From the NCBI RefSeq assembly GCF_032854445.1, contig NC_088301.1:6432044-6496043 (forward strand): DNA of 64,000 bases, written 5' to 3'. This stretch comes from Liolophura sinensis. Taxonomy: Eukaryota > Mollusca > Polyplacophora > Chitonida > Chitonidae. The number at the start of each line of letters is the position of its first letter. Positions within the stretch are counted from its first letter, which is position 1. The position numbers were made by a program, and so were the translations under genes. Positions 5,141 to 38,200 of this stretch are shown piece by piece. Below the pieces are notes generated by a model. It saw nothing but the letters and a program-made list of their open reading frames with translations, was not told the DNA's origin and ran no database searches.

Positions 5141-5253
5141 AACGTGAACAAAAGTTGGTTGATGCAGTGAAAAGCCGATCCATCTCTGCGCCTGAATTCC
5201 TTGCGGCCTTGAAAAAGAAGAAAAAAGACAAGTATTTGAACATTGAAGTCCGA
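5141..5253 (+). CDS. PTP-like receptor, exon a (juxtamembrane)
   Basis: The acceptor is gaattttcag and the donor is CGA|gtaagta. It encodes about 37 residues ending ...KKKKKDKYLNIEVR. The Lys run suits the cytoplasmic side of a membrane segment encoded upstream. It enters with two bases of a split codon, so an upstream exon of phase 1 must exist. Confidence 0.8.
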
Positions 5254-8200
5254 GTAAGTAAGGGTTCTTGGTGTTACAAAGCTTTTTTTATTAAGGTCTA
5301 AGTCTTAATGGAACTTGCATTGTCTTGTTACAGCAACAATTTTCCACTTACATGTGTTTGTAGCTTGTTTTCTTACTGCATTGGAGACGATTGAAATCCC
5401 CATATACGACCACATGCACAGTTCTGTAAAGATACAGTCCTATATTAAATTTGCTTGCTATTGCTTTTGCTTGTTATGATGATCGGATTATTTGTGATGA
5501 GTACTTCACTGAAATAGGACTCTTGTCAAGTTTGTAAATTGACATCATGACCAGAATTAGAAATTACCTTTCAGGAGCCAATTCCAATGCTCGTAGGCAG
5601 CAATTGAATTGTAACCTCGAACAGTATAACCTTGTACACTCAGACAAAATAAGCAGGGCAATGGAGCCACCATTAGAGTTTGGCCTTGGTTAACCTGCAA
5701 GCCTGCTTCAATTATTATAGTACACTTAATACATGTATCTTTAGTGTGAAAAAGATGTAGGAAGTTCGTCATCTTCAAATGAGCAATATAAAATGCTCTC
5801 AGTGACACAGAAAAATGAATGCTATGACTGACACCTTGTGCAAATGCAGTTTGTGAACTTTGGGGTATTACTGTTGCAGAACAAGTCGTCTGCCTTGAGT
5901 GAGAAAGTACAATCTTGAGGGTCCCATGAAAGACTTAAACCCCAGTCTGAGTGAGACAGTACAATCTCTGCTGTCATCAGCGTCCATGTTTCATACTGAG
6001 AAACTAATACAGGCTTTTAAGTTGTGATGTAGTGACAGTGTCGCAACTTAATGCATTTCTTAACATGAGATAATTATGTACAAAAATCAATATTGTCCAT
6101 GTTTGATGAATCTTATTATGTGACATATTTATTTTAGGGCATTTGCAAGGTATATCATGTAACTAAAAGTTATGTTTTGTGGTGATAATTGTCATTGACA
6201 TGTATACAGTGTTAAAGTGTAGTAAACTGATTACATAACATCGCATTAAGGGAACGTCATCACAAGTTTAACGTCATAACTCCAAACCTCCGTATATAAA
6301 TCACTTATAAACTTTCAAGCCAAGAGTGAACAGTATTTACTCGTTAGTTTGATTGGTGTTTTACGCTGTTCTCAAGAATTTGCACTTTATATGATGGTGG
6401 CCAGCGGTGGGAGGAAACTGGGCAGAGCCTGACGAAACCCAAAACCATCTACAGTTGCTGACAGACTTCTCCATGTACGGCTGGAGAGAAGCCAGCATGA
6501 GCTGGACTTGAACTCACAGTGACCGCATTCGTGAAAGGCATCTGGGTCGGTGCGCTGCGCTGACGTGCTAACCCTCGCGGCCACGGAAGGCCCAAGTCAA
6601 CCGTAATAATTCAGCCATTATTAATGACAACTGATACCAGCTTTCATTTGTTCTGGAGAAAAATACTAATCAAAATATTATGTATGATTTTTGGTCAGAC
6701 AGTTAATATCATAGACACAAGAGTATTTGATGTAATGTATACAAAATACACTGCTCTTCCCAATACAGGTAACCGACACATCTTATGACTTATTGATGTC
6801 ATTGATGCGGCATCCAAAACAATTACGCAATATTAGTTCTGATGAACCATTGCATGGGCAGGTATTATGGGGAAAAAGAGATGAGTTTATGTGCTAGATG
6901 TAATTACTATACATCAGAACATGTGTGGCCTTGTACGTGGGAGGAATACATATAGAGGTGAAGTGTGATAAAACAATTCGTCTTTAGTTGTAAGAACCTG
7001 CATGAATGTAGACATGAATGCTGAATGAATTCTTTTCAGTGAATATTCCTTATTTGGACATCCATTTTTAATGAAGTATATTTTATAGTAATGGAATGAT
7101 GTTTAAGAATGTTGCACCGGCATTTTTTCTGAAATGATTATAAGATATATGTGTATATACATGATATGTGTAAATCCTCACCATTTTCAAATATGAAATA
7201 GCATAATTTGTGCATATTTCCAGTTTCATTTTGGAGGTAAAACTACATTGGTGGGATTAGCCAGATTTTGAGCTTCACAAAAAGTATTTTAAGTTAACAA
7301 GGAATGTTGCCTACAGAATATACTTGAATAAACAGCTTGAAAACAAGTGAACAAGAAAATTACAGTACTCATTATTTCTTTAACAGACACTGCATGAATT
7401 TAGGGTTCAATTTAAATTTCCCCTAAATTCTTGATTAAATTTTGCAGTGAAGATGTTCCAGATAACCTTTGTTGAATGTGCTGATAATAACGTGATCTCA
7501 TGATGGCCTGTATATATTGTCATGTGACATCTTTAACCGGTTACTCAGCGTATTTGTCACCATTGTAGGCCATTGTACAGAATCAGGAGGAATATGCTTG
7601 TACTGTTGCCTTCAAACCAGAGAATGTATCCCACAACAACCATCCAGACATCGTCACATGTGAGTATATAGTCTGCTACACTGATGTCCATCTGTCTGAT
7701 TGCCTGTCTGTCGATCTGCTTGTTCATTATGGGGTGCAGAGATACGTTTTCAGCTCTGAAACTAAATTTATTTATTTATTTATTTGACTGGTGTTTTACG
7801 CCGCACTCAAGAGTATTTCACTTATATGACATCGGTCATCATTATGGTGGGTGGAAACCGGGCAGAGCATGGGGGAAACCTACGACCATCCACAGGTTGC
7901 GTAAACTAAATGCAAGGAAAACACTTTAATGAAATGCATATTGAATTTATTTGGTTTTGGGGGCCTCCGTGGCTCAGTTGGTTAGCTTGCTAGCGCAGTG
8001 TAATAACGCAGGAACCTCTTACCAATGCGGTGAGTTCAAGTCCAGCCCATGCTGGCTTCCTCTCCGGCCGTACGTGAGAAGGTCTGCCAGCAACCTGCAG
8101 ATGGTCATGGGTTTCTCCCGGGCTCTGCCCGGTTTCTTCCCACCATAATGGAAATATTCTGGAGTATGGCGCAAAACACCAATCAGATAAATAAATAAAT

Positions 8201-14200: not shown

Positions 14201-17200
14201 AGAGGCCCTCACTGACGTGATCTTTGTGACTGATGACTACACGCAGTGTAGAGGCCCTCACTGACGTGATCTTTGTGACTGATGACTACATACAGTGTAG
14301 AGGCCCTCACTGACGTGATCTTAGTGACTGATGACTACATACAGTGTAGAGGCCTTCACTGACGTGATCTTTGTGACTGATGACTACACGCAGTGTAGAG
14401 GCCCTCACTGACGTGATCTTTGTGACCGATGACTACATGCAGTGCAGAGGCCCTCACTGACGTGATCTAAGTGACCGATGACTACACGCAGTGCAGAGGC
14501 CCTCACTGACGTGATCTTAGTGACCGATGACTACACGCAGTGCAGAGGCCCTCACTGACGTGATCTTTGTGACCGATGACTACACGCAGTGCAGAGGCCC
14601 TCACTGACGTGATCTTAGTGACCGATGACTACACGCAGTGCAGAGGCCCTCACTGACGTGATCTTTGTGACCGATGACTACACACAGTGTAGAGGCCCTC
14701 CTCACTGAGGTGATCTTTTTGACTGATGACTGCATACAGTGTACAGGCCCTCACTGAGGTGATCTTTGTGACCGATGACTACACACAGTGTACAGGCCCT
14801 CACTGAGGTGATCTTTTTGACTGATGACTGCATACAGTGTAGACATGATCTTTGACTGATGACTATGCAGAGGAAGCTCTTACTGTCAGTACTGTAAATG
14901 TTATTCACCTAAAGTTTAGCATCTTTCAAATGACACATTTTGCTTCATTGACCTTATTAAAGCAATTTTCAAGTCTGAGTAGTGGCATTAAAATTATCAC
15001 TGTAGAAGCCTTGATGTGCCTTTGAAAGTACATTTTTACGTACACCAAACTTTAGGTGAAATACCATATTACGTGATTACAGCTTTGCTGTAGCTATAGC
15101 CACTGTACACTAAGCTGTTCCATAGCCTGCAGGCTAGCCGCCTCAGCCAGCTTCACAGTGTCAGATCAAGCCACGGCCTCTCCATACAAGTGATCTGGAT
15201 TAATACGATGATCAATAGTCTCCCCAATTCCTGCTGAGATGTCAATTTATTAATTCCTTACCTCAGAAATGAATTACCCGACTAGGATGAGCTGGTGAAG
15301 CAGCCTTGTCAGCTGGTTTTTTTATATATTACATATTATTTTGGTGCTATAAGGCTTCAGTAAGCCTTGAGCGATATTCTACATTCTACAAATTTGTAGC
15401 GACTGATCAGTGAGCTGTGAAGATGTCTTTGATGAAAGCTTCTGTCTTACATATATGACATGTACAGTATGTACATATGTATCGAAAACATATTTATTAT
15501 ATAGATATATATATATCTGTATATGTGTTGTATACATACTCTGTGCAGTATATACTTGGAAGTTCTACATGTACATGTACTTGTATAGGCATATATGTAA
15601 GTGTGTTTACATCATAGCACTGGATTTTACCATGCATGGTTGCTTAATGTTTCTAGGGTTGGCTGAAGTTTCAAAGCTTAATATGAAGTCTATGCATGTT
15701 TATCCCACAGCCATTGTCTGGAAAACTGTGACTACCCATACATCCATCCATCCATCCATCCATCCATATATACATGATATACATGTAGTTAATAACATGT
15801 TTTTCAGCTGTTTTGATTTATTTTATTTATTTATTTGATTGGTGTTTTATGCCGTTCTCAAAAATATTTCACTAGTACAACGGCGGCCAGCATTATGGTG
15901 GGAGGAAACCTGGCAGAGTCCGGTGGGGAAACCCACGACCCACTCCACAGGCTGCTGACAGACCTTTTCACTTACGGCCGGAGAGGAAGCCAGCATGAGC
16001 TGGACTTAAACTCACAGCGAACAGCTGTGTTGATGCTTAACTCCAGCTTGGGATTATTGTCTGTTGCTGTTCAGAATATTTCTTCTGATGCTGTTATTGC
16101 AACAAAGATTGTGATATGAAGAATTCTTCAACTATGCAAAACATCAGTAGAAACATCCCAAGGGGCTCATGCTCTAACTAAGCTCTTTTAGGAAAATGTT
16201 TCTTTCTAATTCTAAAGTATGAATTTTTAATGCCACAATTTTCGCTGTGATCTTGTTTTTAGGTTTGGTTGTGTTATATAGCCTGTGCTCCTATGGTTTA
16301 CCTATACACAACTACACATGTACCTAGAACTATCCTAGAACTATCTTCTGGCTGCCCTAACATAAAGAAGGTACTCTATGGCCGTCTAGTCTAAATTCAT
16401 CACATGAGCTTAAGTCCAGCTCATGCTGGCTTCTAGCTCTCTGGGAAGTCTGCCAGCAACTTGTGGATGGTGGTGGGTTTCCCCGAGGCTCTGCCCGCTT
16501 TCTTCCCACCTTAATGCTGGCCACAGTTGTATAAGTGAAATATGTGTATTCTTCAGTGCAACGTAAATAAAACAAACAAATAAATTCATCACTTCCTCTT
16601 GATAATTTACAACCAGTCTCCAAGGTGGCCAACAAACCGTCTGTTTAAACCCTTTCTCCGTACTGCAGGCACTCAAGTTTTGTTGTCCTGTGGCTTAAAA
16701 ATTGCCTTTTGTCATATTAAGTCACAGTTCTGTCTTAGTCCCAGTGTCAAAAGGCTGTACAATATTAGCTGTACACATAGGGTTGATGTTCTGCACAGTG
16801 TGGCAAAATTTTATGATTTATCACGTATTAAATAACATAAATTTCTGCCCGAGAAAAGCTTTTAAGGGCCTGGAGTGGAATTTTGTGACATTTAACTGGA
16901 AAGACGAAGTCATGGAAAAATCATGAAAATTTCAGCAGCCTTTAAGTGTATGAACCCTGTAACTACGAAACAGCCATTGATTGCCTTGTGATTTGCTTAC
17001 TAACAGAGTTTTATGTTCAGTCGTGTCAAGTAACATTATCACAAAGTGATAAGTGACAGACATCAGTCATCTAGTTACATTTCACTTTTGTTGTTACATT
17101 TCTTTATTTCACACCCAGACACAATAACAAGAGTGAAATATTTTGTTTCATGACTTTCCAATTTGAGCCCAGCAGGAGAATGTCATATATTCCACAGATT

Positions 17201-20200
17201 TCGAAAACTGCCCCTTGGAGGGTTAGGGTTGTTGACGTATATTTAAGTTTTCACTTCTAGATCATCAGTTAATTTTGCTTTTAGCCATTATCAGTTTATG
17301 CTTGAAAATTTTTAAACATAACTGAACTTTTTAAGTACTTTTACCCTGTGTCAGAGTAATTATACATGTATAGTGTATTATTTTTAGTTTGACAATGTCA
17401 TGATTAAAACATCAATCAAATAAATACATTGACACAACATGCCCCGTCTGCTTATGGCCTGTAGCTTGATTAATACCTTGAAATAATATAACTTTACTTC
17501 AGAATGGCTCAAGGCTTGTCGCTTAATAGCTGTATTAATATATGTTTACCTGAAATACCTGTATTCCTCAGGCATAACAAAAAAATGAATCGCCTGGTCA
17601 AGGTAACGCTTGTCTGTCAAATACTCAGCGGATCTGACTTGACTAGCTCATATTAGTTTTACGTTCATTCCAAGATTTGATACCTAGCAACTGCATGTAG
17701 GGTTTTAGCGGGAAATGTATTTGATATTTATTACTGTGCTGCAATATAAGTTTTGATAAATTTATGTACAAATGTACGTCACAATTAAAACTCAAGTTCA
17801 ACTGCTCCTGGGTTTCTCCCTTGTCATATGTGGGAAAGTCTTAGATAAGTAAGTCAGTACAGGATGGTTTCCCCCCACCATATTAAGCTGGTCATTTAGG
17901 CTGAATGTTCATTTCTATATAGAACACGAATGCCCAATTCCAAAGAGCTAAGATCAGTAAGAGTCTGTACAAGACTGGTATATGCATTATAATTAAGACG
18001 TACAGCCTGGAGGGAAAACCCAGAGCAGCGATGTCAGTGTGATAGTTGGTGTATCATCATGGTCACAGGTAACAGGTGAAATATGGCCTCTTGTCGATTT
18101 ACCTCATTTAAGGTCTTATTCTGTCCATGTAAATGCATAAATACATGTAGTAGCAAGTTCCACGCCCCAAGCAACATGGCTTTAGCAGAATTAGGTTAAA
18201 AAAAATGCATTGATGTTAATTTCAATCGACGTCATGCACTGTTCTAGAATTCCTCAAAACGCTGTGTTGTCATCACATTTAACGTACAAACACATTAAAA
18301 TAAAATGTCCTACCATTTGCCAGATTAACAATTAACATCTGGACTTAAAGCTGCTGTGCGTAATTCCTCTGCGGCAGTACGTGGTAAGGTCTGCAGCAAC
18401 TTGAGGATGGTCGAGGGTTTCAGAGCTCGGTTTCCTCCCACCATAATGATGTCCGCCATCACATACCCTAATTCTTCACCTTTTCAACCATCTATGTGAC
18501 CAATATTTTGAAACATTCTGAGAGAACTATGAGGTGTAGAGAAATAATTTGCAGAGTTTTGTGAAGCTTGCTTCTTCTAATAGTGACACAAACTAATCAT
18601 TTTTGGCCTCATTTTTTAAACAATGGTTTGCATAAATTCCACTGAAAAAAGGGCTATGGAGGTTGAAAAGGTTGAAGATTTACAATAAGTGAAATATTCC
18701 TGAGTACAGCGTAAAACACCAATCAAATAATTAAATAAATGAAGCGGCAGGTGCATGAACAATTGAGAGTTACATGTAGACTTAAGCATGTGACTTTATT
18801 GGAATGTATTTGGGCATTGTTAGCTGCTTTGAATTTAGGGACTTGCTATCCAATGGAGGAAATGCCCAAAGGTTTTAGTCTGATAATATATGGTAAACAT
18901 TAGGCTATCATTAAAAACATGTTTGGTTGTGGTAACCAGAGGCTGAGCTTCCAAAAAATGTTCCTTATTTTTGTTGGGCTCTTGGTTGATTTGAATTGAT
19001 GTGATATTTTTGCCTTGTTAATTTCTTCTGTATCTTCTTTTTAGAAAAAGCTAGAATTTGCAAAAGATGTCTGTAAAAACCTATTTATTTCTTATTCAGG
19101 ATTGGGTTACCCGCAAGAAAGAATTGTTTAAGTATGACATTAAAATAAATATTTATGTTGGGTGTAACCCCCACCTACCCTTATTGTGTTTTTGCTAATT
19201 TTTTTTTTTTTTTAATGTTTTTCCATTCATGTTTATCTCCATGATAATTTCCTTAAATTCACCAATTTTTCATAAGCCAGTGTATATATAAAAAAAAATT
19301 CTTCACTGACTGTCCATTGTCTGATATGGTTGAATTGCTCACATCAAAGAATTATTTGAGAATAGCCTTTTGACTGGACAAACACATATTGCAAACCATG
19401 ACAAAAGCAGCCAGCCACTTGTGTTGTCAGTGTGGCCATGCACTCAGTAGATGTGTTGACGTGAGATCAGTTTCAGCTAGCGATTGACCTAATTTCTCAT
19501 TGGCTCATTTTCCAGATGATCACAGCAGGGTTTCGCTGCAGTCGCTTCCAGATGGCGTTGTCACAGATTACATCAATGCCAGCTTTATCGAGGTCAGTGA
19601 CCAAACAATAGGGTGAACTGAAATTCTATAGAATTTGCCTTCAAGTGCTGGTAGACCATTATTAGTTATCAGTGTGTAAACTGCCCTAATTTTTTTCTGC
19701 CTTAATTTTTGTCTGTAAATTATTTGAATATGGGGGAAAATGATCTTATCAAATTGCTTTATTTTGCTTTGACTTATTTAATTTAACATTGTTGATGCAT
19801 TTCACTGTGTTGTTATGCGTAAGTTATCAGTTGTGCCTCTGAAAAAAAAAGCCACTTTGTTCTTTGTCTTCTCAAGAAAACTGTTTATCTTGTAATTTAC
19901 ATCATATTTGTTTTATTTGATTGACACTGCATCTTCGTGAAAAATACTCATATAATTTATGAAATATGTTATTACAGAATAGACATGGATATGGAAAGTA
20001 TGAATAATAACAATTTTTTAACAGTGCCCTACATTCACTATAAAAAAAAATCTTGAATTGTTGACACAGATATCCTAGTTGTGTTGTTTTATGAAAATAT
20101 ATTATAGCATCAAACTGTAAATGGGAAATCTAGCAGGTTTACCAACAAAATTAAACCTTATGCAACGCGTTTAAAATTTTACCTAATGGCATGTCATTAA

Positions 20201-23200
20201 CCTGTTTCTTTGACAACAGTTTAACTGTTCCCTAGCTACTTTCTCCATAAAAAATTCTAAATTGTTGACACAGATATCTTATTTGTTGTTTTATGAAATA
20301 TATTACAGCATCAAACTTTAGATGAGACATTCAACGTGTTTACCAAATAAATCATACTTTATGCAATAAGTACAAAATTCTACCTAATGGCATGTCATTA
20401 ACATACTTTTTGACAGTGTAAAAAAACAAACATTAAGATACCCTCGCTAAAACTCCTGGTTACAAGTTGTAGAGATAAACATGTATATTAAAGGGCCGAG
20501 TAGGTAGCATATGCCAGTGCAGCTCATGCACTAACGCAAGAGCCTCTGAGCACCAATGTGTTTTCAGTTCAAGTCTAGCTTATGTTAACTTCCTCTCCAA
20601 TCATATGCGTGAATTAAGGTCTGTCAGCAACTACCAGCGGGTGGTCGTGGGTTTCTATGGGCCATGCCAGGTGTCCTCCCAGGATAATTCTGGCTGCCAT
20701 CGTATAAAATGAAATGTTCTTGAGTAAGGTTTGAAACACCAATCAAATAATTAAAGGAATTTGTTTTAAAGTGCAGTACATATTATACGTCCGTGGCTGT
20801 AATCCCAAACTAATAACTATACTAATCTGTATAGAAGACTTGTAGATGATAATCAGCTACCTAATACATGAATTTTATGTCGTCGGGCTGACTTTGGTAA
20901 ATTCAATTCAAATCTTAAAAAACAAGGGGAAATAATCAAAATTGATTTTAATCAAATCTGTAAATGATAATGTGAATAAGTCAGACTGTTTTGTGATAAG
21001 TGAATGAAATTATACAAGAACAGTGTGGTACGTGTAGATGTAATATAAATCAGCAGCCACATCTAGCAACATGTGCTCTTGGTGGTCTCTAAACCATCTT
21101 CCTCCTTCATTAATGGTATCCTTTGAGAATTATACATGTGCTAGAACCAGATGGTGCCTTGTCTTGTAGGTTGCCATGGTTATAGGCTAGAAACAGGTGC
21201 TTTTTTCTTCCTCTCTTCTGAATAATTACCTGTAACCTGTCATCTTAACTAATTACTTGTCCTTTAATTCCACAGGGTTGTGGTGGCATCCCAAATGAAT
21301 ACATCGCTGCCCAAGGTAATGGCCCTACAAATATCTTGTACATACAATTGTTAACCTATATATGTGACACAGGTTTTTGCTTTTTTTAATTTATTGGATC
21401 CCCTGATAAGTGGTTGATGATTCTCTTGCGGCCATTTATGTAATCATTGAAGCATTCATTGAAGGACACTTGTCTTCCACTAATATAGTGTGCATTCATG
21501 GAGGAAAGTGTGTCATTATCTTGCCAGTGGTTGATGGTTTACTCTGGACACTTGCTCTGGTTTCCTCCATCATAAAATGACTGCCACAAGTGAAAAATTT
21601 CTAAGAATAGTGGTTGAAACAACAATCAAATCAATTACATTGTTCGTACCACTAATTTATTTTGTACTCTAATTCTGAATCATAGAATGTACCTGTATAC
21701 AAGGTGTGTGAATTAAATTAATTGAATTATTTTAAATGTTGACAGCCTTTTTTTAACTTACTATTTATTGGATAAATGAATGGCTTTTTAGCAAATCACA
21801 GTTGGGTACAAACAATTGGTGTTTTTGTGCATGAAACTGATGGCTTGCATAATGCGTGTAATGAAATAATTTTGTGAATAACTATTTTTCTTATGACCAA
21901 TCAGAAAGTAATTCATTTGAACTTGATAATGGTTATATGCTTTCCAGCTTGATTGCAGTATTTTTTGTGTGTGTGCATTGCCAACTAGCTTTGTTTTATT
22001 ATTTTGGCTTTGGAAGCTTGTTGTGTATACAGTTTCGGCAATATGTACCGTAGCTAACTTTTGACCTGTGTCTGTGTGTGACATTGTGTCTAATCTTAAT
22101 CTTTCTGCAGGCCCAAACCACAAACACAAGGAATCGGTGATAGTATTCTGGCAGATGATCTGGGAACAAGGTGTCCACTGCATCGTTATGACATGCTCAC
22201 TATTTGAACACGCTGTGGTAAGACAGAATCATTTAGTTATCTGGCAGTTTGTAAACTGCTTTAAATGGTAAAGGATTAGAGTCCACATTCAGCATTTATT
22301 CATAATTAGCTGCCCCTGTATATATTATTAAATTGAATGCCATAAACTGTTGAAAAAGGGTACAATAATCTGAGTAACATGGCAATGAAAATCACTAGAT
22401 AAGTGATGAGACTGGTTTTATACATTTTTTCCAGCCTTTACAAGCTGTCAGAGTTTGCCATTAAGTACAGTGTTAAAAAGCCACACATTTGACAACAAAC
22501 ATATCGCATTTCTGCAAGAAATGGTTTGCTGTTCTGCATACAGCTGTAAAAACAGGTCGTCAAAGAACCCAAGAGTTATTTTTACGGCGCTCACATCGTA
22601 CATGTATTTACATTGTACACGACTAAAGGCCACTGTATGCATAGGCTGTTCGGAATGGCGACAATAACATATACTGGTAATTGTCATTGCATATGGGTAT
22701 GAATTCTTTGAGGGAATAGAATGATATTTATTGTGAAGCAAACAGAAAGAAAGAATAATAAACAAATATTAAATCTTAAGATAAACACACGACAGGTATA
22801 GTGTGACTCAGCTTACCAGTCCGTATTAATTGACAGTATGGTTAGAATTGCCTGGACAAAGATCAGATTCAACGTCAGAACGAGCCCACTGTGGCTTCAA
22901 ATTGATACAGCAGTATATTTGCTTCTGTGTAGCTAGAATCTCTCTCAAATATGACATCGTTTTGATATGAATTCCCAGGCTAGACTGGCTGGCCATCTTC
23001 GACGTTACCCGCTGAGCCGTACCGGGTCGGCTGGTTGGAAATTGGCTAGGGCCTGTAGATCTGTTGTTTAGGTGGATTTAAAGGCATTATTATGCTTCTC
23101 AGAAGCCCTCTCGGTAATATATGTGTAAACAGGTTATAATCTTTATAATAGGCCAGGAGTTAAATCTGGACACTGATCTGTTAAAATTAAATTGAATGGT

Positions 23201-26200
23201 GCTTGTATATGATTATAATTTGCCATTGTTTCCATTCCATAATAAGTTTGGGCCATATATGGCTGCCGTGTTCCTCCCACCATAATGCTGGCCGCTGTTG
23301 TATAAGAGGATATCCTTGAGCATGGCGTAAAACACCAGTAAGTTTGATTAACTGACATATCATTTTGCTATGGTTTTGTGCTACAGCAACAGTGTGCCAA
23401 ATACTGGGAGGACATGTTTGGAAAGCTGAAGAATGTGGTGTATGGAGACGTAGAGATCCAGCTAGAGGATACAGAGTGCTTCATGCATATGACTGTCAGA
23501 ACGCTGTCTGTTCAGAAGGTGAGATTACAGCCGGGAGGGGGACTTTCTTGTTAGATGAGGTTTGGAGTTGTTTGTAAGATGGGATGTGGGCTTGTTTGTA
23601 AGATGGGATGTGGTCTTGTTTGTGAGATGAGATGCGGGCTTGTTTGTAAGATAAGAAATGGACTTGTTTGTAAGATGAGATGTGGGCTTGTTTGTAAGAT
23701 GATATGTGGATTTGTTTATGAGATGTGGACTTGTTTGTAAGATAGGATGTGGGCTTGTTTTGTTAGATGGGATGTGGGGTTGTTTGTGAGATGGGATCTG
23801 GGCTTGTTTGTAAGATGAGATGCGGGCTTGTTTGTAAGATGATATGTGGATTTGTTTATGAGATGTGGACTTCTTTATAAGATGAGATGTGGGCTTTTAT
23901 GCAAGATAGTATGAGAACTTATTTGGAGTGTAGTATGTGAATGTGTTTGGAAGATGGTATGTGGACTTTCTTTCTGTTAACTTATTTGTAAGATGGGATA
24001 TCATGTGGACTTGTTTGTAAGACAGTATGTGAACCTGTTTGTAAGACAGTATGTGAACCTGTTTGTAAGACAGTATGTGAACCTGTTTGTAAGACAGTAT
24101 GTGAACCTGTTTGAAAGACGGTATGTGAACCTGTTTGTAAGACAGTGTGTAGACTTGTTTGTAATACACTGTGTGAAAATATAATGGTGGATTTGTTGGG
24201 ATGAGATAGGAATTTTGTAGGATTTATTTATACCAGAAGGGATGACCACTTAGCAAGATGACTGTTAGGTAGAGTGTTTCTGCGTCAGATAGACCAGCAT
24301 TAATATGGTTGCATTGCCATCACTATGTGCTTGTAACCTTTTGACCGTGCCATGTGTTATATGTGTCAACAGAAGGGTCATCCACCACGGACTGTCCGTC
24401 AGTTTGAGCTTTCTGGCTGGGGGGACCAGGACGAGCCTGATGCCGGCCTCATTGTGGAATACAGACGCAGAATTCGCCTCTTCACCGACTCCACAACAGG
24501 CCCCATGCTCGTTCACGGCAGGTAAACTCACCTGAATGCACCTGCATGGAAATGCTCCTGGTGACTACCAAAGCAAAAATAGTTTGCTTATTGTATGCGC
24601 TGTATTGTTGAGGAGTTAGGGTTTCCATACGTCTACAGAGTATTCTTCTTGCTACAAAATCTTCTCAAGATGGCTGTGGTGATCAAGCCCAATCATTCTA
24701 ACAATCTTTCCTCAAAACTTCTTACAATAGTAGTTAGTGGTTCAAGTGCTCTGTATATTTGGTGGTTGCTTATGTACATTGTGTGAAGATTAGTTCAGGT
24801 AGTAATTATACGACCATCACCCAGCCCAGATTGTGTTACAGGCTGATAGATGTTGCCTAACTTTAGCACTAGTGGAACAATTAAATGGCATTTATGTGTA
24901 ATGCTTTAACTTCAAATTAAAAGGGAGCGACTTTTTTGTTTTATTGTTTGGACACTCCAGTGTCCTCCACCTTTAAAGTAGAATGCTGTGAAATACATGA
25001 AAAAATCTTGAGTAAAGCTGATCATATCAATAAATATTGATCACAGTCTTCATCCCTTGAGATGTTCAGTTCATACTCGAGTGATGTTCAGTTAGTACTC
25101 TTGTGATGTTCAATTCATACTCCAGTGATGTTCAGTTCACACTCTAGTAATGTTCAGTTCATACTCTAGTGATGTTCATTTGAATGCTCTGATAAACATG
25201 CGGTAATCAATAAACAGTTTTGTTGATCTTAAAATTGTGTTCAGGGCCTAATGGGCCTAGAGGCTATTTCAGTGGCATAGTGCAGCGCAATGAATCAGGA
25301 GCCATTCACTAATGCGGTCATTGCGAGTTCAAGTCCAGCTCATGCTGACTTCCTCTGCAGACGTACTTGGAAAGGTCTGTCAGCAACCTGCAAATGGTTG
25401 TGGCTATCCCCATTGGCTCTGCCCGGCTTCCTCCCACCATAATGCTGGCCGCCGTCGTATAAGCAAAATATTCTTGAGTTCAGGGTCAGATAAATAAATA
25501 GGATGGTGTGCTGAGGTTTGTTTGAAAGGTAGAGTGATATCTGAGTGAATATTGCAAGTTTCTAGAAAAAAGTAATATTTTATGACATTTGTCTAGAAAT
25601 GGACTTGAAGGGACAAAATTTTAGGTAATTTACTGTTGGGTGTTTTATGAAAGTGTTTGAGAATAGCTGCTCTGTGGATGTCGTCCTGTCAATGCTACAT
25701 CTAGTGGTGTGTTTTTAAGGTACGGTGGAGGTAGAACAGCGGTGTTCATTGCTGTGGACTACTGCCTCAAACAGTTAGAAATGGACAACTCTGTGGACAT
25801 CTACAGCACAGTTCTTCACCTCAGAAAGTTCAGAAAAAACATGGTTCGCACTCTGGTGAGTTGTGCACCCAATGCAGTTTTACACCTTTCTGAAATCCTC
25901 ATTTTAGAACAGGGACAGATAGGCCTACAGTCAATTTTTAATTTCATGATGTTGAGATTACCATGAGCTGTGTACTCTTCACTCTACGTTATGTGCTGTG
26001 TTTATAATTGAAGTTGTGCCTCAGAGTCATGTCAGATTGTCTTTCCACACTTTGAAAGTCAAAACAGACACTATTAAACTATACATTCTTCAAACTATGG
26101 TGATGACAGATCATCTACATCTTCACCTTCCACAATTCCACCAATATCAGTCTGGGTAACCTAACTGGCTTAAATTGATAGATCACTGGCTCGTCGCATC

Positions 26201-29200
26201 TATCACACCCTTTACCAACGAGGTCACTTGTTCAAATTCAGCTCTGGCTATGACCGCAGCTTTGAGGGAACATGAATGTCATGTAGACATACGTCGTTGA
26301 TGTACTCTCTACAAACCGGGTTGCTTCACCCATAAAACTTACAGCTGTCATACAAGTCAAAAGATTTTGAGCATACCAATCAAATTAAAAAATATATCCG
26401 GAATCAGTCCCACAAAACTATTCTACTTTAATTTGTGGAATTAGGGTGCACTTTGCACTGTGTCCACGTAACTTGTAACCATGGCAACACAATAACTACA
26501 GAACTGGTCCCCTTGGAAGCTATGGGCACGTAACATGACATGCACATTGTGAAATGAGACCATAAGCATTGCTGTACTGATGAAGTATTAAGTGGTGGCA
26601 GTGATCATTGCAGGCCCAATACAGGACAATCTATGAGACGGTGGGGTCTTTCATCAACTCTGGCCACACAGTCATCCCATGTTCTCACTTGCCTGCTGTG
26701 GTACAGCGCCTCTCTATCAAGGACCCCCGGGTAAACATGACTGGCATAGAACAAGAGTACAAGGTGAGCACACACCCAGCCATGGTGTGATTTAAATTTA
26801 TATAGATTTGTTGGTTTGTTTGGTTACCACCAAATTAATGAAACAGTCTTGAGAATGGATTGATGGGCAGATGGATTTTGTCTAAAAGAAAATTTTTAGA
26901 GGCTAGTTTAAAGTATCGTAGAATTTTACTTTTGGTGCTGGAACACTCAGAATCAAGCAAAATGTGCAACTTTGTCTGGTTACATGTATATTGTCAGAAT
27001 CTGGAGAAGATCATCAAGAGGATAGAGTTAGGAGAGTGTGCGGCTGGCCATCAGGTACAGAACAGAAACAAAAGTAGAGACATCATGCTTCAGCCACGTG
27101 AGTATATGCGCAGCTCTCTTCAGTAACATACTGTAGCAGGAAGACATACATGCACTCATTGGAGCAGGTTCAGTATAACTCTGAATATCAAAGCCATTTT
27201 TTGTTCTATAGTGGATGTTAAGAGAGTATGGGGTTATACTGTAATTCTGTAACCTGTTTATGCGTTTGCAAGGTGTGTATTCAAATATATTCTAAATCAT
27301 TATTCAGTGTAGATTGACAAAATTATACTTTTTGTGAAGCCCTGAAAATGGTCAATCCAACAAATGTGGGGTTTTTGTCTCCTAAATCAGATTATAGATA
27401 TGCATAAATTGCTCTTTCATATGTACAAAAGGGTTGAGAAATTAGGATATATATGAGAGTAACAGTGGAAGACATCTATGAAGGTGAGGTCTTTGATGAT
27501 TAAGTAAAACTTTAGTGCTACACTACAAGACTACCAGATACTACAAGGTAGTAATCAATAAGATAAAACTAACTCACAGTGGCAGGGCCACATGTCTATA
27601 TCAGTGGGAATCCAGGCCTACCACATGGACTTCTTATAGGCAGATCTTTTTCCTCTTTTGGACGTGACTGAAAATTTTGGGCTATCTTTCAGATTCTAAG
27701 ACAAAAAAGCTTTAGTCGATAGCCAAAGATTTTCTTTGTGAAACAGACTAGATAAAATTGCTAATAGGCTAACAGAGTTAGCTGTCTAATTGTAGCCTTT
27801 TAGACTTTTGTAAAACAGGTCCCAGCTATCAGAAAAGGTTCTGATACACTTATGACAGTTATAAATGTTGAATCAGATTACCTTAATGCATGTATCATTT
27901 AAAACAGGTATGATTTTTTTTTTACTTGGACGTGCCTTACAGTGCAGACAGCTTTAATTGACCACAATTAACAGATTTGTGTTGACATTTCTCTGAATTA
28001 TTTTGGGGCATATTGGTAATTTCTTACAGCTCTTCTTAGTTTTTTCCTCTCCAAATTTGATGACTATCCTGTTAGTATGTCTACAGTAGTCTGAAGTATG
28101 ATATAGAAGTGCCAAACCAGCCTTGGACAGGCAATTTGCAATTCTTGTCTTAGTGACAATAAGTCATCATTTATGCGCGTGTGGGCGTTGCAAAGTTTGA
28201 GGTTGTTTGAAAACCACTTCTCTTCCACCAATAAGGTGTACATATATCTGTGCACCACATGTGGGAAAGTTTGTCAATATTAACATGGCAAAGGTCCCTG
28301 GTTCACCCTGGGCACTCCGATTTCTTCCACTCTTTATACTGACAGCCGTCGTATAACTGTAATACAACAATTAAATAAATAAATAAATATTGAATGTCAA
28401 AGAGATCATGAAAGGTAAATATGATGTGCTGATTGATCTGTGTCATTTTTGCCCTGACAGCTGAGAGATCACGACCTTGTCTTCAGACAGGAGAGAGTGT
28501 AGAGGACACGGATTATATCAACGCTGTCTATGTTGATGTAAGTGTAGAAAAGTCAACCATTCAGTCTCCGGATCCAAGCTCTCAAGCATATTAAAGAAAA
28601 TATCACACAGGCAAAATGCAGAATTAAGAGCACTACAAAAGTATTTGCCACAAGAGAAATTTGAAACTGGATCATATAGTCTGCTAGTTAGGCTCTATCA
28701 GAATAGTTGACAAAAATATATAGCAGCAAAATTTGTTTATATTTTGAAATTTGCACTTGAAACAGACACTGTTTGGGCTATTGAAACAGGAGTGATTTCA
28801 GTGGTATACCGGGTAACAGTCTGTGAATTTTTAACATAAAAATATATTTGTAAACCATGTATCTTAGCCTGACAAACGTATGTTGATTGATTGTTTTTTT
28901 TCTCAGGGTTATCAGACAGTGAACAGTTTTATCGTTACCCAGTGGCCATACAAAAACACAGTAAAGGACGTGTGGCGACTGTTGTATGATCAGCGTATTG
29001 ACACTCTTGTGGTGCTAAATGATGTCAAACATTGTCGGGTAAGTTATGCAGGTTATTTAAAAAGTGTACGTCTAAAAAAAAAAAAGAAAGACAAAAATAT
29101 AACCTTAATTATTTCGAAAAAAGAATGGAAACAGACCTAAAGCCCATTTTTTTCTGATGTTCTTGGTAATCTATGAATCAGAGTCCAGGGGATGCACCAT

Positions 29201-32200
29201 CGTAGAAAAATAGGAAACACAATGTCACGTTGTTTGTACATGATGTATATGAGGCTATTAAAAAGGCATCGTGAGATTTGCGTGACATCAGCGGAAACAG
29301 CCATGATCTCAAGAATCAGAAATAACTTGTTCCCGTTTGTCTAAAGCTTATAACATTGTGCCACATTCAGTTTTCTCTGTGCATAATTTTGCTTACTTTG
29401 TTACATGTATGCAGTGAAGTGTTCTTTTTAAACTCCATGTGGGATATTTTATTGATTCACAGATGTACATTTGCTTAAGTGTTCTTCGGCTTTGCTTGGT
29501 TTTTTTACTCATGTAAACTTCTTCCTTTGGTGTAGCACTTTGGTTGTTTGTCAGAAGGTTATGATATATATCGCAGTCTGAATTCTATGAACAAAGATCT
29601 GAAGGTAATATTCAGGAAAATGCAAGCGTTTTCACTTAGATCCCTTTTGAATAAACCAGACTTGTGTAATATATGTATTTATTTGTCAAATGTGCTTATG
29701 TACAGCTGTGACACTTCAAAGAAAAAAAATAAATATACATGGTTGTGGCCCCAGAAGTTTGTGGTGCTATACGAGTAGGGCCACATTATGATATGTGCGT
29801 GTGGTATGTGTTGTCCTAGTCTTAACACATCACTTTGGTCGATATGTGTACCAGTGTCATGATGGATTTTTATGATTTTGTACACCCTTTTGGCCCCAAA
29901 TGGTGGGTGCAACAATTGGGCAGAGGTTTGGCACATCACATCATACATGTAACATATCTTTATCTTAATGTATTTTTACAGTCTTATCCATCCTTTTGGC
30001 CCAAAAAAGTTGGTGGGTCAAGTGAGCAGAGGTTTGGCCCAATTGGAGTTCGCTACATCAACTGTATCAAGTATCCTCATGTTGTCATCAGAGTCTTCCA
30101 GATTAGAAAGGTAAAAAATGTTTACAAAAATACTCTGTAGAAGGAATCATCACATCACATTCTACATTCTGTGTCTCAATTTGATATCAAGCCTGTAGTA
30201 TCTTTCCCTTTGCAATGAGCACCATTTGTATTCTGTGATAAAGTAAAGGTTGACCAAAATATGAACTGAAAACAAAAAATTACATCATCAGTTTCAAAAA
30301 ATACTTCATACTAGATCTTAGTCAACCGTTTCGTGTGATTTGGGGAATACATGAATGCGTTTTACATCAGTGTTTGAACTACTTTTTGAAATTGGTGTTA
30401 CATTATATAAATTATGTTTGCGTATCCCCTTTCATTCCATACTAAATCATTCATGTCAACATTACGTGAATCATATCATGATTACTTTATCCTTACAGTT
30501 ACCCAGGCAAAAAATTACAAAATCACGAGACGTGGGTAATTTAATCCAAAATGCAGTGGTAAATACATGATCTGTCATATCTACCTGCTTCTAAGCTACG
30601 ATGTTACACCTGCATGGACGCTGCTTGCTGAATATAACTACATATTTGGGCTCTTGGATGCTATCTTATATTTCTATTTCTCATGCCTTAGTGAATATGT
30701 GATCTATTAAACCCAGATGTTTTCTAGGCTGTCATAATATTTATGCATCATGAAAATGCTTGCCGCTTGTAATTTTGCTTTCACTTTCACTTTGTCTGTA
30801 TTTGCCCCACACACCTCCTCCCCACCAACTTAACCTCAGATTATATCCTCAGTGCTTTGGTGAATGTCTCCTGCGTTAAAATCATTACTGTTTTAAGGTG
30901 ACAGAAATAATTTTGGTGCATTTTTTTAGATGCAGGATTACAAAATTGCATGTATGTGTCTTTCAGCATTATCTACAGAAGGCTTTGTTTCATTTCATCA
31001 TCGTCATAGAAGCCTAAATCCACCCATTTACCCATGTGTGGACTTCATGCATTATCCATTTAAAAATGACCATGATCATACCATTTTTTTTTTTTCATGC
31101 TTTTCATTTTATTTTCTGAGGTGAAAGGGTTAGTACAAATTAAATTAGTTTTGAATCTTTCCCACACCTATGATGATGTTAATTGGATGGGCCAGTAAGG
31201 GGGTTAATACCATGGCGGGCAATTAGGTGGTTAGTTGGGTGGAGGTTGAGGAGGCTAGTTGGGTGGAATAATGAGAAGGATAGTTGGGTGAGCCAGTGAG
31301 GAGGTCTGTTGAGTGGAAAAGCGAGCAGGTTAGTTGGGTTGGGCAGTGAGGAGGTTAGTTTGGTGGGCCAGTGAAGAGATCAGCAGGGTTGGTGGGGCAG
31401 TGAGGAGGCCCGTTAGATGAACTAGTGAGGAGATTAGTTGGGTGGGCCAGTAAGGTCAATAGAGTGGGTCATTGAGGAGGTCACTTGGGTGAGCCAGTAA
31501 GGAGGTGAATAGGAGGGTCAGTGAGGTCAGTTGGGTGGGCCAGTGAGGAGGTAAGTTAGATGGGCCAGCGAGGGGGGCAGTTGGGTGAACCAGTGAGGAG
31601 GTTAGTTGTGTGGGCCAGTGAGGAGTTCATTTGGGTGGGCCAGTGAGGAGGTAAGTTAGATGGGCCAGCAAGGAGGTCAGTTGGGTGAACCAGTGAGGAG
31701 GTTAGTTGTGTGAGCCAGTGAGGAGGTCAATTGGGCGGGCCAGTGAGGAGGTCAATTGGGTGGGCCAGTGAGGAGGTCAGTTGGGTGGGCCAGTGAGGAG
31801 GTCAGTTGGGTGGGCCCGTGAGGAAGTTAGTATGTGGGCAAGACAGGTCAGTTGGGTGGACCAGTGAAGTTAGTTGTTTGGTCCAATGAGGAGGTCAGTT
31901 GGGTGGGCAAGTGAGGAGGTTGATTGGCTGGGCCAGTGAGGGAGTTGATTGAGTGAGTCAGTGAGGAGGTCAGTTGAGTGGGCCAGTGAGGAGGTCAGTT
32001 GAGTGGACCAGTGAGGTCAGCTCATGAGACCAGTAAGAAGGTTAGTTGGGTGGGCCATTGAGGTCAGTAGAGGAAGTTAGTTAGGTGGGCAAGTGAGGAG
32101 TTTTCATTGACATGATTGATGAAGCTTTGACAGGAGAATATTCTTAGAAGAACCAGCCATGTGTGCATATTGATATGCCACAAAGACCACTGATGGCCAG

Positions 32201-35200
32201 ATCTGAGCAAAGTACTAACAGCTTGATTCAAGATCATGGTGTTTAGCATAGTTAATGTCCCAGGTTCTGTTTGGGCCAGTCTGTATGTGTATTGTTTGAT
32301 GACTTCAGGGAGGTAACTCTTGCTTTGCTTTATTGCTTTACAGTGTTGGTCAGTTACTGATATCATGATTCAGGATGCTATGCGTGTGATGACGGTATGT
32401 TAGCATAGGAGACGTAGTATATGTATGAGCTATTGTATCTGCGTGTGTGGTAACTAACCCTCGTTGTTGCTCAATGTAGCTCTACTCCGTACAAGTAATA
32501 ATTTTTGTTCACCTTTAAATTTGAAAGCAACTTTCCAGTGCACATTGACCTTCTTCTTCTGCTTATTTTTTTTGCTTAGGATTTTTTGTAGGAGTTCGAT
32601 GAGTCCATTTTAACGGTTTTGACAAAAAGAACATGTGTCTTAGACGCAGCATACTGTGATACTGTTAGTTTACAGTCAGCTGCCATGTCTGAGAGAAAAA
32701 TATTGATCCGTTGCATTTTTGTTGTACATGTATGCTCTATCCCAACCTGCATAGAGATCTTCAGATATTCCAAGCGTTGAACTATCTGTCTGCAAGTTGC
32801 AGTTCAACACAATGTGTACTTGTGACAAGTCCCCTGCAGAGTTACATATATTGCATAGCACATGTTTTGCCTTGGTGTGCTCACTTGGATTTCTACACAA
32901 AGTCAAATTTTGCATCATTACATCACAGTTCAGTCATTTGACATGAAGACATTTGGATATCCCTGTGACCCAAGCCTTTCTGGCATGGTCTCGTTCAAAA
33001 AGGTATTGAATTGTTGTTTGTGAACAGTTAATGGCAGTTTTTTTAAGGAAGCTTATGTTCTCATCAATGCTTGTGTGTACATGTAAGTATGGTGTAAGAT
33101 GAAGTGACGATAATATGCACTGATTAACTGATGTGTAAATTAACACTGAATTCTGTGATATGTAGTGTACTATAGCGTGTACATTAACATGAGGCACTGA
33201 ACATAGAAACTCATTTATTTATTTATTTGATTGGTGTTTCACGCCGTACTCAAGAATATTTCACTTATACGACGGCGGCCACATTATGGTGGGTGGAAAC
33301 CGGGCACGGCCCATGGGAAACCTACGACCATCCGCAGGTTCTTGGCAGACCTTCCCACTTTCGGCTAGAAAGGAAGCCAGCATGAGCTGGACTTGAACTC
33401 ACACCGACTGCATTGGTGAGAGGCTCCCGGGTCATTACGCTGCGCTAGCGCGCTAACCAACTGAGCAATGGAGGCCCTCCAACATACAAACTGATGTGTA
33501 GTGTATTGTTGGGTGTACATTAATATGATAGACTGATTATGTACAAGCTGATTGATGTGTATAGTGCATTGTAGTGTCTACATTAACACGAGGCACTAAG
33601 TTAAGAAAAGCTGATGTGTAGCGTAATGTTGTGTGCACATTAATATGATGCACAGAGCACATACAAACTGATGTGTTTAGGTGTATGTTGTGTTTACATT
33701 AACATTTAGCACTGAGTATATATAAGCTGATATGTAGTGTACTATAGTGTGTACATTAACATGATTCACTAAGTAAATGTGTAGTGTACCGCTGTGTACA
33801 TTAATGTGATTCACTGAGTATGTACAAGCTGATGTGTAGTGTACTGCTGTGTACATTAATGTGATTCACTGAGTATGTACAAGCTGATGTGTAGTGTACT
33901 GCTGTGTAGTGTACTGCTGTGTACATTAATGTGATTCACGGAGTATGTACAAGCTGATGTGTAGTGTACTGCTGTGTACATAATGTGATTCACTGAGTAT
34001 GTACAAGCTGATGTGTAGTGTACTGTTGTGTACATGTGATTCCACGAGTACACATCTGTAAAGCTGATGTGTAGTTTATCATTATGTACTGCCTAGGTAC
34101 ATAACATGCCATATTTTATGATGATCATTGACCAAAAAATTACCTCCCAACCATAGACACTATATTTGAATTGCCATATATCCATTTTAGTATGTATTAA
34201 TATATAGCTAACAGTTCAGAAAGTTTGCATGCAGAAAGTTTAAACTCATAGTTAATGTCTGTCAGGATTTGTGTTTATTTATTTGTAACTGTTGTGAGTG
34301 GGGTGCATGAAAACTTATTTGCTATGGTTGTATACAGTACCAATGTGCATGTTTTTATTAAGGACCAGATATGCATGATTTCTGAACAAATCTGTGCGTG
34401 CACTGAAATATATCAGCCTCCTTTTATGTGTTGAGATCTTTCTTGTAGGTATGTCTAAGATTTAAAAATTAGGTTTGAATCAGTGAACTGATACATAGAC
34501 TAACACATGCGTGAGATGTGATTCAAAGATGGAACGGACAGTTTTTGTATTGTGTTGTAAATTAACAAGCATACTTTGATGTAAATTAATACATTGTTAA
34601 AATCTTTTGGGTACATTAACTTGTATTTGTCACTGTATTTAAAATTTTGAGAGAGAAAATCTTTCCCTCAAGTCACTTATCCCCATATTTCTTAGTCATG
34701 TTAAAGTTGAACCAATAGCACACAAAAATGCAATGATAAGATCTTCACCAGGAGTTCAAACCGTTGCTGTGTATAATAATGCATGTTAACCAGGAAGTTT
34801 TCTGTTTAAAAATGAAACATTCCCTGTCATCCATTTGAATATACATACATGCTTATGAAGTATTTCTATCTCAAGTATGAAGGGGTTTTTTTCACCTGAA
34901 GTTGTGATGTGTTTCCATACAGAAATTAGCTGCAATGAGCCCAAAAGGTAACTCCAACCCCATCCAGTGGCGATATGTCAAGATGTTTCAGATTCGCTCT
35001 GATTCATGGCCATCAAAGGAAAAGGTTCCATCTGCCATAGACCCTTTGGTCTACCTGATGAACTTTGTGGAAGAATGGCAGGAAAACAACAGTGTTATGA
35101 AGAGTCCCATCTGCGTCATGTCCAAGTGAGTTCATAAGTCTATCTAGGCAAAGTCTCAGTTACTGGCTAATCCATAGCCAATCATATTTCCTCAATTTTT

Positions 35201-38200
35201 CAATTCTTTGCTCATTTGGAGGATACGGGACACATTTCATTTTCTTGGAGTAATGAAGAACTGCGGCTCATCAGCAATAACCTACTCACATAATAGCTTC
35301 CAACGAGAACTTTCCAAGGTGTAGAATTTGACTGTTTATTTTGCTTGTCATGTGTGCTTGTTTGTGGATGGAAATGTCATCCTGATTTCATACATAGAAT
35401 TTTTTTCAATATATACACTCATGGCTGTTTTTTCCTCTAAAAGGAATAGTTATACAGTGCAGGTATATGCTGTAATTTTGTGAATAGGCCTACATGGATC
35501 AAGAAGGGGATTTCCTTGTCACAGACACAAGACTGTATTTAATTTGTAGGTTATGCGTTAGTCAGTAACAATCACCTGACAACTGTGTGAACTCCTTTGA
35601 TTATGACCTTGACAACTGGGTAATCTCCCTTGATCCTGATTTTAACAGTTTGCATTATCTCCCTTGATCCTCACTTTGACAACTCTGTGATCTTTCTTGG
35701 TTCTGTTCTTGACAACTGTGTAAACTCCCTTTATTCTAATTTTCAGAGATGGAGTGAGCCGCTGTGGCCTGTACTGTGCACTAAGTGTAAACTGTAGTAA
35801 GCTTCAGAAAGAAGGCGATGTGGATGTCTACAACTCTGTCAGAATGATCAAAAGGAACCGACCACCTTTAGTCTCCTGTCCAGTAAGCTAAACAAATACT
35901 GTGGTTGACCTGAAAATTTCCCAAAAAATAGTGCATATTAGAGGAAAATAAAGGCTATAAAATATAACTTTTGTTGAAAGCAAACAAGCCTACCTTTATC
36001 CTTCCTTCGAAAATGCTTTTCTGCGATCGATAGAACTTCATGCGTCAGAAAAACATTAGTAACTTACTTTTGGAATAAATCTTAGCTCATTTGCAGTAAT
36101 TATAGTCAAAAATCATGCCTACAGTACATAAATGTCCTCTGTTTAGTGTTAGTATAGTTATCCATTGTCTTTGTATGTGTGATTGGGCCTCTGCAGCCGA
36201 GTGTGATTGGGCCTCTGCAGCCGAGTGGTTAACATGCCAGCGTGGCACAATGACTCGGGAGCATCTTGCCAATGCAGTCGAGTTCAAACCCAGCTCATGC
36301 TGGCTTCCAATCTGGTTGTACATGGGAAGGTCAGCCAGCAATCTGTGGATGGTTGTGGGTGTCCCCCGGCACTGCTCAGTTTCCTTCCACTGCCATTGTA
36401 TAAGGGAAATATTTTTGAGCGTGCTGTAAAAGTAAATAAAAGTAAATTTGGATTTTCATACAAGAAATGTGGAATCAATACCAATACCAAAAAAGAGGCC
36501 ACACAAGAGAATTTCTGTATCATAACTTGTATATATCTTGGATTATTTAAATACATATATTCAAGCTTTAGGCTTAAATATAAGTATTGAAGACTTTACT
36601 GCAAATCCACCTTTACATGTACATCCATATATGGCTATGCTCATTGACTTCTATGCATGAATTAACTTTTATTATTCGGGCCTAATTCAAAGGACCACAA
36701 ATTATTGCACAAAAATATCAAAATACCAGATGGCATGCTTTGAACATGTATAAGTTGGCTAATAAAGAAAAAAACAGAAAGGTCATTTTGAATTTCTTTA
36801 AACGTAAAATTTATGATAACTCTTTCGGATAGCCTCTTCAAGATTTTGGCAAAATGCCTGATGGATGATATATGTTTGCACTTTGCAATCTCTGTCAAAG
36901 AATGCATCATATAAAAATTGAAAGTCAATTAAATGAAGAAATGACTAGCTCAGCCTTACTATGAACGTTACTGGAATTTCGTTAGTCATATTTGTTGATA
37001 TATATCTATGAGTTCAAGTCCAGCTCATGCTGGCTTCCTCTCTGGGAAGGTCTGCAGCAACCTGCGAATGGTCGTGGGTTTCCGCCAGCCTCTGCCCGGT
37101 TTCCTCCCACCTGCTGGCCCCAGTAGTACAAGTGAAATATCAATCAAATAAATAAACAAAATAATATAAAGTTAACAAGTCTGTATGTAAGGGACTAAGT
37201 TAATTTAGTGACGCTGTCTGTCATACACTGAATTTGCTGATGTTAGGCAAAACTCTACACAGTTGACTCTATATTTGATTTATCGCAAGTTTTTCTGGTG
37301 ATCTTATCTGGTGATTAAGTTTTTGAGGGTTATTTCCCTGTAACACTGGCACATCCTTTTAATAATTGTATGCATTACTTCCACTGAAAAAAATGGTTAA
37401 GAGGTTGAAAGGTTGAAGATTTACAGTAAATATGCTTCACAATATCTGAAGTATTGCTGATGTGGCATTGCTTGCATTGAATAATCTTTCCACGATATGA
37501 CTGTAATATTGCTAGGTCATAATTATTCCTTCCATATTCTGACTGTTGGCTAATTGATTTGAATACGTTCATGTTTCAGGAGTATTCCTACTGTTACATG
37601 TTCCTGAGCCGGTTTGTGGAGCTGTTACAGGAGCACCCTCCCCAGATCATTGTATCAGGAGCCAGTCAGGTGTACATGAACTCTGCATTTGAGGCCCCCG
37701 AAATCGCCCAGGCTGAGGAGAATGAGGGGACAGGGCTGTTGTCACGCCGCTCCAGTGCCGCTAGCTTTAGAACTGCTGTTGAAGACGCCAATGAGTTGGC
37801 CAAAATATACTCTAGTAGTTCCCACGACAAATATTTCATGGTGAGTGCCGAGACAGCTTCCGTTGTGATAGAGGACGAAAGGGCGGAGCCTATGGCTCCT
37901 CCCCCTACGATTGTACCTTCAGATGATGAGGAAGAAGAGGAATTTGTGCCCCCTGAAACCTCCAGTGTCCTGACTCAAACTGCTGCTCTTCCTCATGCAA
38001 CGTACGGTAAGGCCACGGATCGCCAGGGTGCCAGTAGTTCTGCTTTGACCACCAGACCCCACCAATACACAGCCACCCCCTACCCGCACGGCTCCTCCCT
38101 CCCTTCTCTTCTGCTTCCCACAGGCACACAGGGGCTGCTTGGCTCTAGGGGTGGGGATGTTAACGGCAGTGGTAGCAATCTGGGAATAGCCCAGGGGACT

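Follow-up and report, generated by a model that had tools for sequence, protein, structure and literature searches.

We analysed a 64,000-nucleotide stretch of the Liolophura sinensis genome (the window; contig NC_088301.1, positions 6,432,044 to 6,496,043 of the forward strand), which contains a plus-strand gene with two tandem protein tyrosine phosphatase (PTP) domains, D1 and D2, both without the catalytic cysteine. In the spliced model, the gene occupies window positions 5141–38443 and comprises 18 exons and 917 codons with no in-frame stop and a terminal stop codon, and its introns have a GT donor and an AG acceptor throughout. An earlier, sequence-only reading had given the gene as 24517–35123; its catalytic codons were placed correctly, but the gene is larger, with two additional exons predicted upstream of the window. 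These two exons come from a scan by codon usage and splice sites that was trained on the phosphatase gene's own exons. The scan found 16 of the 18 window exons with exact boundaries, gave the exon at 29536 another start and found the last, donorless exon in part; because it was trained on the same gene, this recovery is not an independent test. The two predicted exons lie 27–31 kb upstream of the window, are compatible in phase with the window exons, and splice into ...CIYCKDQHALPENKRKRKEKTEKEKREREQKLVDAVKS.... The predicted membrane helix has a mean hydropathy of 2.26 over 19 residues and, together with the predicted juxtamembrane stretch, supports the label of a putative receptor. The tandem receptor-type architecture proposed in the sequence-only reading is thus borne out by the two Pfam domains and the predicted transmembrane exon.

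The exons and catalytic codons are listed below. Window rows are on the plus strand and are taken from the gene model; those marked "aligned" are also based on the alignment to PTPs.

C7:6401511-6401613, predicted transmembrane exon (ARSITESEDFVVWVSICLAGTVFGFFLATCIYC), from the exon scan and phase fit
C7:6404758-6404822, predicted basic juxtamembrane exon (DQHALPENKRKRKEKTEKEKR), from the exon scan and phase fit
5141..5253, +, coding exon, juxtamembrane (REQKLVDAVKSRSISAPEFLAALK...), its phase fitting that of the two C7 exons above
7569..7659, +, coding exon, D1 start, with the altered phosphotyrosine (pTyr) loop HNNH at 7632-7643 (aligned)
19516..19592, +, coding exon, D1 (DHSRV...DYINASFIE)
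21276..21315, +, coding exon, D1 (GCGGIPNEYIAAQ)
22111..22217, +, coding exon, D1 (FWQMIWEQ)
23387..23518, +, coding exon, D1 (CAKYWED...YGDVEI)
24373..24521, +, coding exon, D1, with the WGD loop at 24418-24426 and the 5' half of the P-loop (aligned)
24517..24519, +, Gly codon GGC at the catalytic Cys position of the D1 P-loop (aligned)
25720..25855, +, coding exon, 3' half of the D1 P-loop (R/YGGGRTA), with the first Q-loop Gln changed to Arg at 25847-25849 (aligned)
26614..26763, +, coding exon, D1 end and D1-D2 linker (aligned)
26998..27097, +, coding exon, D2 start, with the altered pTyr loop KSRD (aligned)
28461..28537, +, coding exon, D2 (ERSRPCL...DYINAVYVD)
28907..29038, +, coding exon, D2 (GYQTVNSFIVTQWP...)
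29536..29604, +, coding exon, D2 insert
29982..30110, +, coding exon, D2 (FWPKK...FGPIGV...IRVFQIRK)
32344..32394, +, coding exon, D2 insert
34923..35125, +, coding exon, D2, with the WPS loop at 35007-35015 and the 5' half of the P-loop (aligned)
35121..35123, +, Ser codon TCC at the Cys position of the D2 P-loop (aligned)
35747..35882, +, coding exon, 3' half of the D2 P-loop (K/DGVSRCG), with the first Q-loop Gln changed to Ser at 35874-35876 (aligned)
37580..38443, +, last coding exon, D2 end and a 262-residue tail, with the stop codon at 38441-38443

The C-terminal tail after D2 is rich in Ser, Ala, Glu and Thr and contains seven Tyr, one of them in YMNS at residue 662; no Pfam match at E 1 falls in the exon that bears it (37580–38443). 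YMNS fits the YxN pattern, which we take to be a candidate Grb2 SH2 motif. The introns of the gene contain several repeats: a 49-base minisatellite of 15.2 copies (14096–14843) between the exons at 7569–7659 and 19516–19592, a 25-base array (31247–32063) and two 24-base arrays (23548–23907 and 24003–24177). A run of 200 N (4038–4237), either a gap or a withheld stretch, lies in the intron just upstream of the first window exon.

Both domains belong to the classical PTP family far above chance. One Y_phosphatase match (Pfam PF00102) falls in each half of the protein, with 202.3 bits (E 1.1e-59) for D1 and 128.5 bits (E 4.1e-37) for D2 at a cut-off of 20.9, and D1 has stretches similar to the references, namely DYINASFI, IAAQGP, FWQMIWEQ and YGDVEI. 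In the alignment to solved PTPs, the D1 P-loop reads HGRYGGGRTA, as compared with HCSAGVGRTG, and places Gly in the Cys column, and the D2 P-loop reads MSKDGVSRCG and places Ser there. HC-x5-R with a nucleophilic Cys is found in neither domain, and the P-loop Arg is retained in both. The two codons singled out in the sequence-only reading, GGC in D1 and TCC in D2, are in frame within the exons 24373–24521 and 34923–35125, align with the Cys column and are each one base away from TGC. In both P-loops, an intron (slash) falls after the second base of the codon that follows the Cys position, as VHG-R/YGGGRTA in D1 and VMS-K/DGVSRCG in D2.

Further replacements surround the lost cysteines. Within the D1 P-loop, Ser is changed to Arg and Ala to Tyr. 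The pTyr loop KNRY reads HNNH in D1 and KSRD in D2, the WPD loop reads WGD in D1, with the Asp retained, and WPS in D2, and the first Q-loop Gln is replaced by Arg in D1 (VRT) and by Ser in D2 (VSC for VQT). The pTyr-loop, WPD-loop and Q-loop changes had likewise been read from the sequence and are reproduced in the alignment to PTPs, as is the retained P-loop Arg; the open reading frame is borne out by the gene model. In addition, D2 has lost the His that precedes the Cys position as well as the two Q-loop glutamines, and carries inserted stretches. Two P-loop glycines are retained in D1 and one of these in D2. Neither D1 nor D2 shows the set of features of a competent PTP, that is, the WPD general acid, KNRY and the Q-loop Gln.

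PTP chemistry needs a Cys thiolate to form the phosphocysteine intermediate; with no thiolate and no intermediate, neither D1 nor D2 can dephosphorylate by the family mechanism. Since both nucleophiles are gone, any function would be non-catalytic, and no redox switch of those cysteines would operate. In PTP1B, the pTyr ring is held by Tyr46, Val49, Ala217, Ile219 and Gln262. The aligned D1 residues are His, Ile, Tyr, Gly and Arg, respectively, and this replacement of pocket residues indicates that the pTyr slot of D1 is probably filled or reshaped.

The intronic N run and the single base that separates each codon from TGC would leave room for missed alternative exons or assembly errors, in which case a catalytic isoform would exist. 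A motif-based scan for Cys-bearing P-loop halves in the three plus-strand frames of window 1–39000, which a non-fitting Cys half would escape, returned 14 matches, none of them PTP-like by reading; a phase-compatible GT follows two of the 14 (at 12036 and 35449), and neither of these is PTP-like. The loss of both cysteines asserted in the sequence-only reading therefore stands, with no PTP-like Cys exon in this interval to restore D1. No second copy of the gene was found among 33 genome matches (50 of 180 candidates scored); the best match outside the gene is an intronless frame on C13 with 32% identity. Because the changes affect two independent domains and include six or more additional active-site replacements, no single sequencing error can explain the pattern, and a hidden catalytic form of this gene is highly improbable.

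Paralogues in the same genome retain the nucleophile, with Cys in all 23 scored P-loop 5' halves, representing 18 of 19 loci. This tally was taken at E <= 0.05 from 26 rows, three of which were removed as intron run-through (L012 5326, L023 4943 and L029 5427). The locus L019 gave no P-loop row at E 0.05, and VIVHC there has E 16. The 19 loci had been selected for strong Pfam matches, which tilts the tally towards conserved genes.

To place the gene among its relatives, D1 was compared with solved structures. The best single-domain structures are those of PTPRK (170.4 bits), PTPRM (162.2) and PTPRT (155.7), followed by PTPRU (130.6) and PTPRG (120.8). Tandem entries rank higher because the scores of their two domains add up; against the D1 parts of such entries, D1 reaches 159.2 bits with PTPRS and 152.4 with PTPRA, and the lead of PTPRK is small. 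With moderate confidence, the intracellular region can be described as R2B-like, on a similarity ranking rather than a tree. PTPRK, PTPRM and PTPRT, the R2B receptors most like the present D1, differ from it in that their D1 has HC.

Among the fetched paralogue loci, D2 is nearest to its counterpart in the C13 gene (31.2% identity across 260 columns; 34% in a second comparison) and is also near the D2 exons of multicopy receptor PTP (RPTP) genes; its identities to PTPRS D1 and D2 (29.0 and 28.8%) follow close behind. The D2 P-loops of two of these loci (L018 and L025) read VHC followed by RDGVTKCG or RDGVTKSG, with the Cys present and Lys at the Arg position, and that of the C13 gene reads VHCSDGATQSG. 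Given such degenerate D2 P-loops in relatives, the Cys-to-Ser change in D2 is a small step. The Cys-to-Gly change in D1, flanked by Ser-to-Arg and Ala-to-Tyr, is a remarkable change.

The C13 gene (L011, C13:7957500-7961500) is itself an RPTP, with an 891-codon stop-free intronless frame that encodes a membrane helix, D1 and most of D2, and FN3-like sequence is visible in it by eye. Unlike its multi-exon relatives it is intronless, and it is possibly a retrocopy. Its D1 has the Cys but shows WPE and an Arg in place of the first Q-loop Gln, so that these two types of change are not peculiar to the phosphatase gene in the window. Genome-wide, PF00102 has at least 151 matches (150 of 397 candidates scored), with repeated groups on C7 at 5.83-6.33 Mb and 17-20 Mb and on C15, C3 and C23. 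These many grouped RPTP exons suggest that the genome harbours an expanded receptor phosphatase family.

We favour, at a probability of roughly 0.6, a single-pass tandem receptor-type PTP whose two domains would both be pseudophosphatases and which would act as a phosphorylation-independent scaffold or decoy. Replacement of the pTyr-loop Tyr, the P-loop Ala and the first Q-loop Gln (by His, Tyr and Arg in D1) makes a remodelled pTyr pocket probable. The receptor may then tether to the membrane the substrates on which its active relatives work and shield them from dephosphorylation, as proposed for PTPRU, and its tail may supply docking sites such as YMNS.

PTPRU is the closest published system. 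It is a vertebrate R2B receptor PTP in which both domains are pseudophosphatases, and its authors call it unique among RPTPs (PMC7320164). PTPRU, in which the pTyr loop is altered, WPE is present and the P-loop is occluded, is inactive, yet binds PTPRK substrates, and a decoy role has been proposed (PMC7320164). The present protein likewise has a tandem-domain receptor plan, with D1 and D2 predicted to be inactive and, in D1, departures from the canonical pTyr-loop, WPD-loop and P-loop sequences. This is distinct from PTPRU in that the D1 Cys of PTPRU is retained, blocked and redox-sensitive (PMC7320164), whereas here the Cys is gone from both domains. Furthermore, a 262-residue tail follows D2 here, and no MAM/Ig/FN3 ectodomain was recognised. 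The sequence-only reading was right that receptor PTPs usually keep D1 active, but a receptor with two dead domains was already in print with PTPRU; what differs here is the loss of both cysteines, along with the tail. Among the matches listed from the open-licence literature (titles and abstract beginnings), no receptor with two dead PTP domains other than PTPRU appeared. Passages from two papers on CG42327, another candidate considered, are silent on catalysis, and the name PtpRW, a further candidate, does not occur in the papers listed for it.

The sequence-only reading had named a phosphotyrosine trap or a scaffold. As a trap, the Cys-to-Ser D2 and Cys-to-Gly D1 would bind pTyr without turnover and sequester phosphorylated ligands, for which the P-loop Arg of both domains, the two P-loop glycines and WPD Asp of D1 and the single glycine of D2 would be suited. 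The residues replaced by His, Tyr and Arg in D1 line the pTyr pocket of PTP1B and argue against such binding, as does the absence from D2 of the His before the Cys position and of both Q-loop glutamines; the Q-loop Arg by itself is a weak point, being present also in C13 D1. A precedent that bears on both readings is STYX, of the dual-specificity phosphatase family, in which Gly replaces the catalytic Cys; it still binds ERK1/2, for which it competes with MKP-2 (PMC8622459). STYX thus shares with D1 a Gly at the Cys position in a PTP-superfamily domain and has a binding role, but one Gly-to-Cys change restores its activity (PMC8622459), whereas several other active-site residues are altered here. 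The PTPRK D2, in turn, binds Afadin independently of phosphorylation (PMC9640194). Because the pTyr-pocket residues are altered, and with PTPRU, PTPRK D2 and STYX as precedents, the scaffold or decoy fits better, and a trap appears unlikely.

Several results weigh against the favoured reading. We took the columns that are invariant in five reference domains and compared catalytic loops with the rest by Fisher test. In D1, 5/15 such columns are changed in the catalytic loops and 13/42 outside (p 1.0), and against three D1 references the counts are 7/18 inside and 24/66 outside (p 1.0). In D2, 7/15 are changed inside and 16/42 outside (p 0.76), and the Cys-bearing C13 D2 shows the same spread (7/15 and 18/42; p 1.0). 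The test gave no sign of a catalysis-specific loss: invariant-site changes are as frequent outside the catalytic loops as within them, which indicates general divergence rather than a clean loss of catalysis alone. Upstream of the transmembrane exon, neither an ectodomain nor a first exon was recognised over ~70 kb (exon scoring, best 46 candidates), and no signal-peptide exon of the gene was recognised over the same distance (signal-peptide scan, 11 matches). A MAM/Ig/FN3 ectodomain was likewise not recognised by exon scoring, Pfam not having been run on the upstream DNA. What the scans did return was one gene resembling a sulfotransferase, along with frames that look like repeats or transposons. 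A weak ATG exon at -31484 to -31373 has the right phase but no signal peptide, and was excluded from the gene model.

Divergence across the whole domain, rather than focused on the catalytic loops, would also be expected of a former RPTP that has lost its function and is drifting. The frame is a counterweight: there is no stop in 917 codons, and all introns keep GT-AG. Neutral replacement at the 5/15 level of the invariant catalytic columns predicts ~18 nonsense changes, whereas 0 are observed (P about 1e-8 in a simple Poisson model in which all base changes are equally likely and indels are absent). Were there only 0.05 replacements per codon, a frame free of stops would have a probability of 0.07, so the open frame alone is compatible with a recent loss, which also counts against the favoured reading. 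Taken together, we consider a decaying gene improbable. The constraint invoked in the sequence-only reading is suggested by the integrity of the frame only.

A receptor without phosphatase activity might alternatively serve as a dead dimerisation or allosteric partner, forming hetero-dimers with active paralogues and regulating them rather than sequestering their substrates. The many RPTP exons in the genome, including a group on this contig that lies ~105-600 kb before the window begins, would offer such partners, and a head-to-toe RPTP dimer with an inaccessible active site has been proposed (PMC2638020). We give the proposal little weight.

The favoured scaffold or decoy reading can be extended, tentatively and with a low expectation of being right, to a membrane adaptor. 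An RPTP lineage that has shed both catalytic cysteines would compete with active R2B-like paralogues for their substrates, carry its own phosphorylatable tail and promote tyrosine signalling; the tail, for example at YMNS, would be phosphorylatable but not dephosphorylated by the protein's own domains. Provided that the gene is expressed and conserved, it would take the PTPRU case further, and non-catalytic roles of receptor PTP domains could be tested directly in a natural protein. With a source that is not a vertebrate, receptors with two dead PTP domains would then not be confined to vertebrates.

Inactivity has also been reported among R8 receptors. PTPRN and PTPRN2 have one PTP domain, in which the Cys is retained, whereas the phosphatase gene here has two PTP domains and no catalytic Cys. 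Both PTPRN and PTPRN2 (IA-2) are receptor PTPs reported to be inactive (PMC7320164).

Other features lie near the phosphatase gene and in the rest of the window. Plus-strand exon candidates of a gene that is carbohydrate sulfotransferase-like by eye lie ~61-65.6 kb upstream of the window (L007, C7:6362044-6372043), between the phosphatase gene and the RPTP group, and include a membrane-anchor start and an RTGST motif. Within the window, a 141-base tandem repeat (6.1 copies, 99% matches, 49250–50110) falls in a 322-residue minus-strand stop-free frame (49205–50173). A second minus-strand stop-free frame, of 369 residues (53773–54882), has a high content of Lys, Ser and Glu and draws no Pfam match at E 1; by eye only, it looks like a nuclear- or nucleolar-protein exon. 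WD40-repeat frames on the plus strand at 60054–62070 (Pfam E 4.1e-21 in 61666–62070) probably belong to a neighbouring gene, which we presume to resemble PLAA. A 66-base minisatellite (21.2 copies, 93% matches) occupies 62606–64000 and reaches the end of the window.

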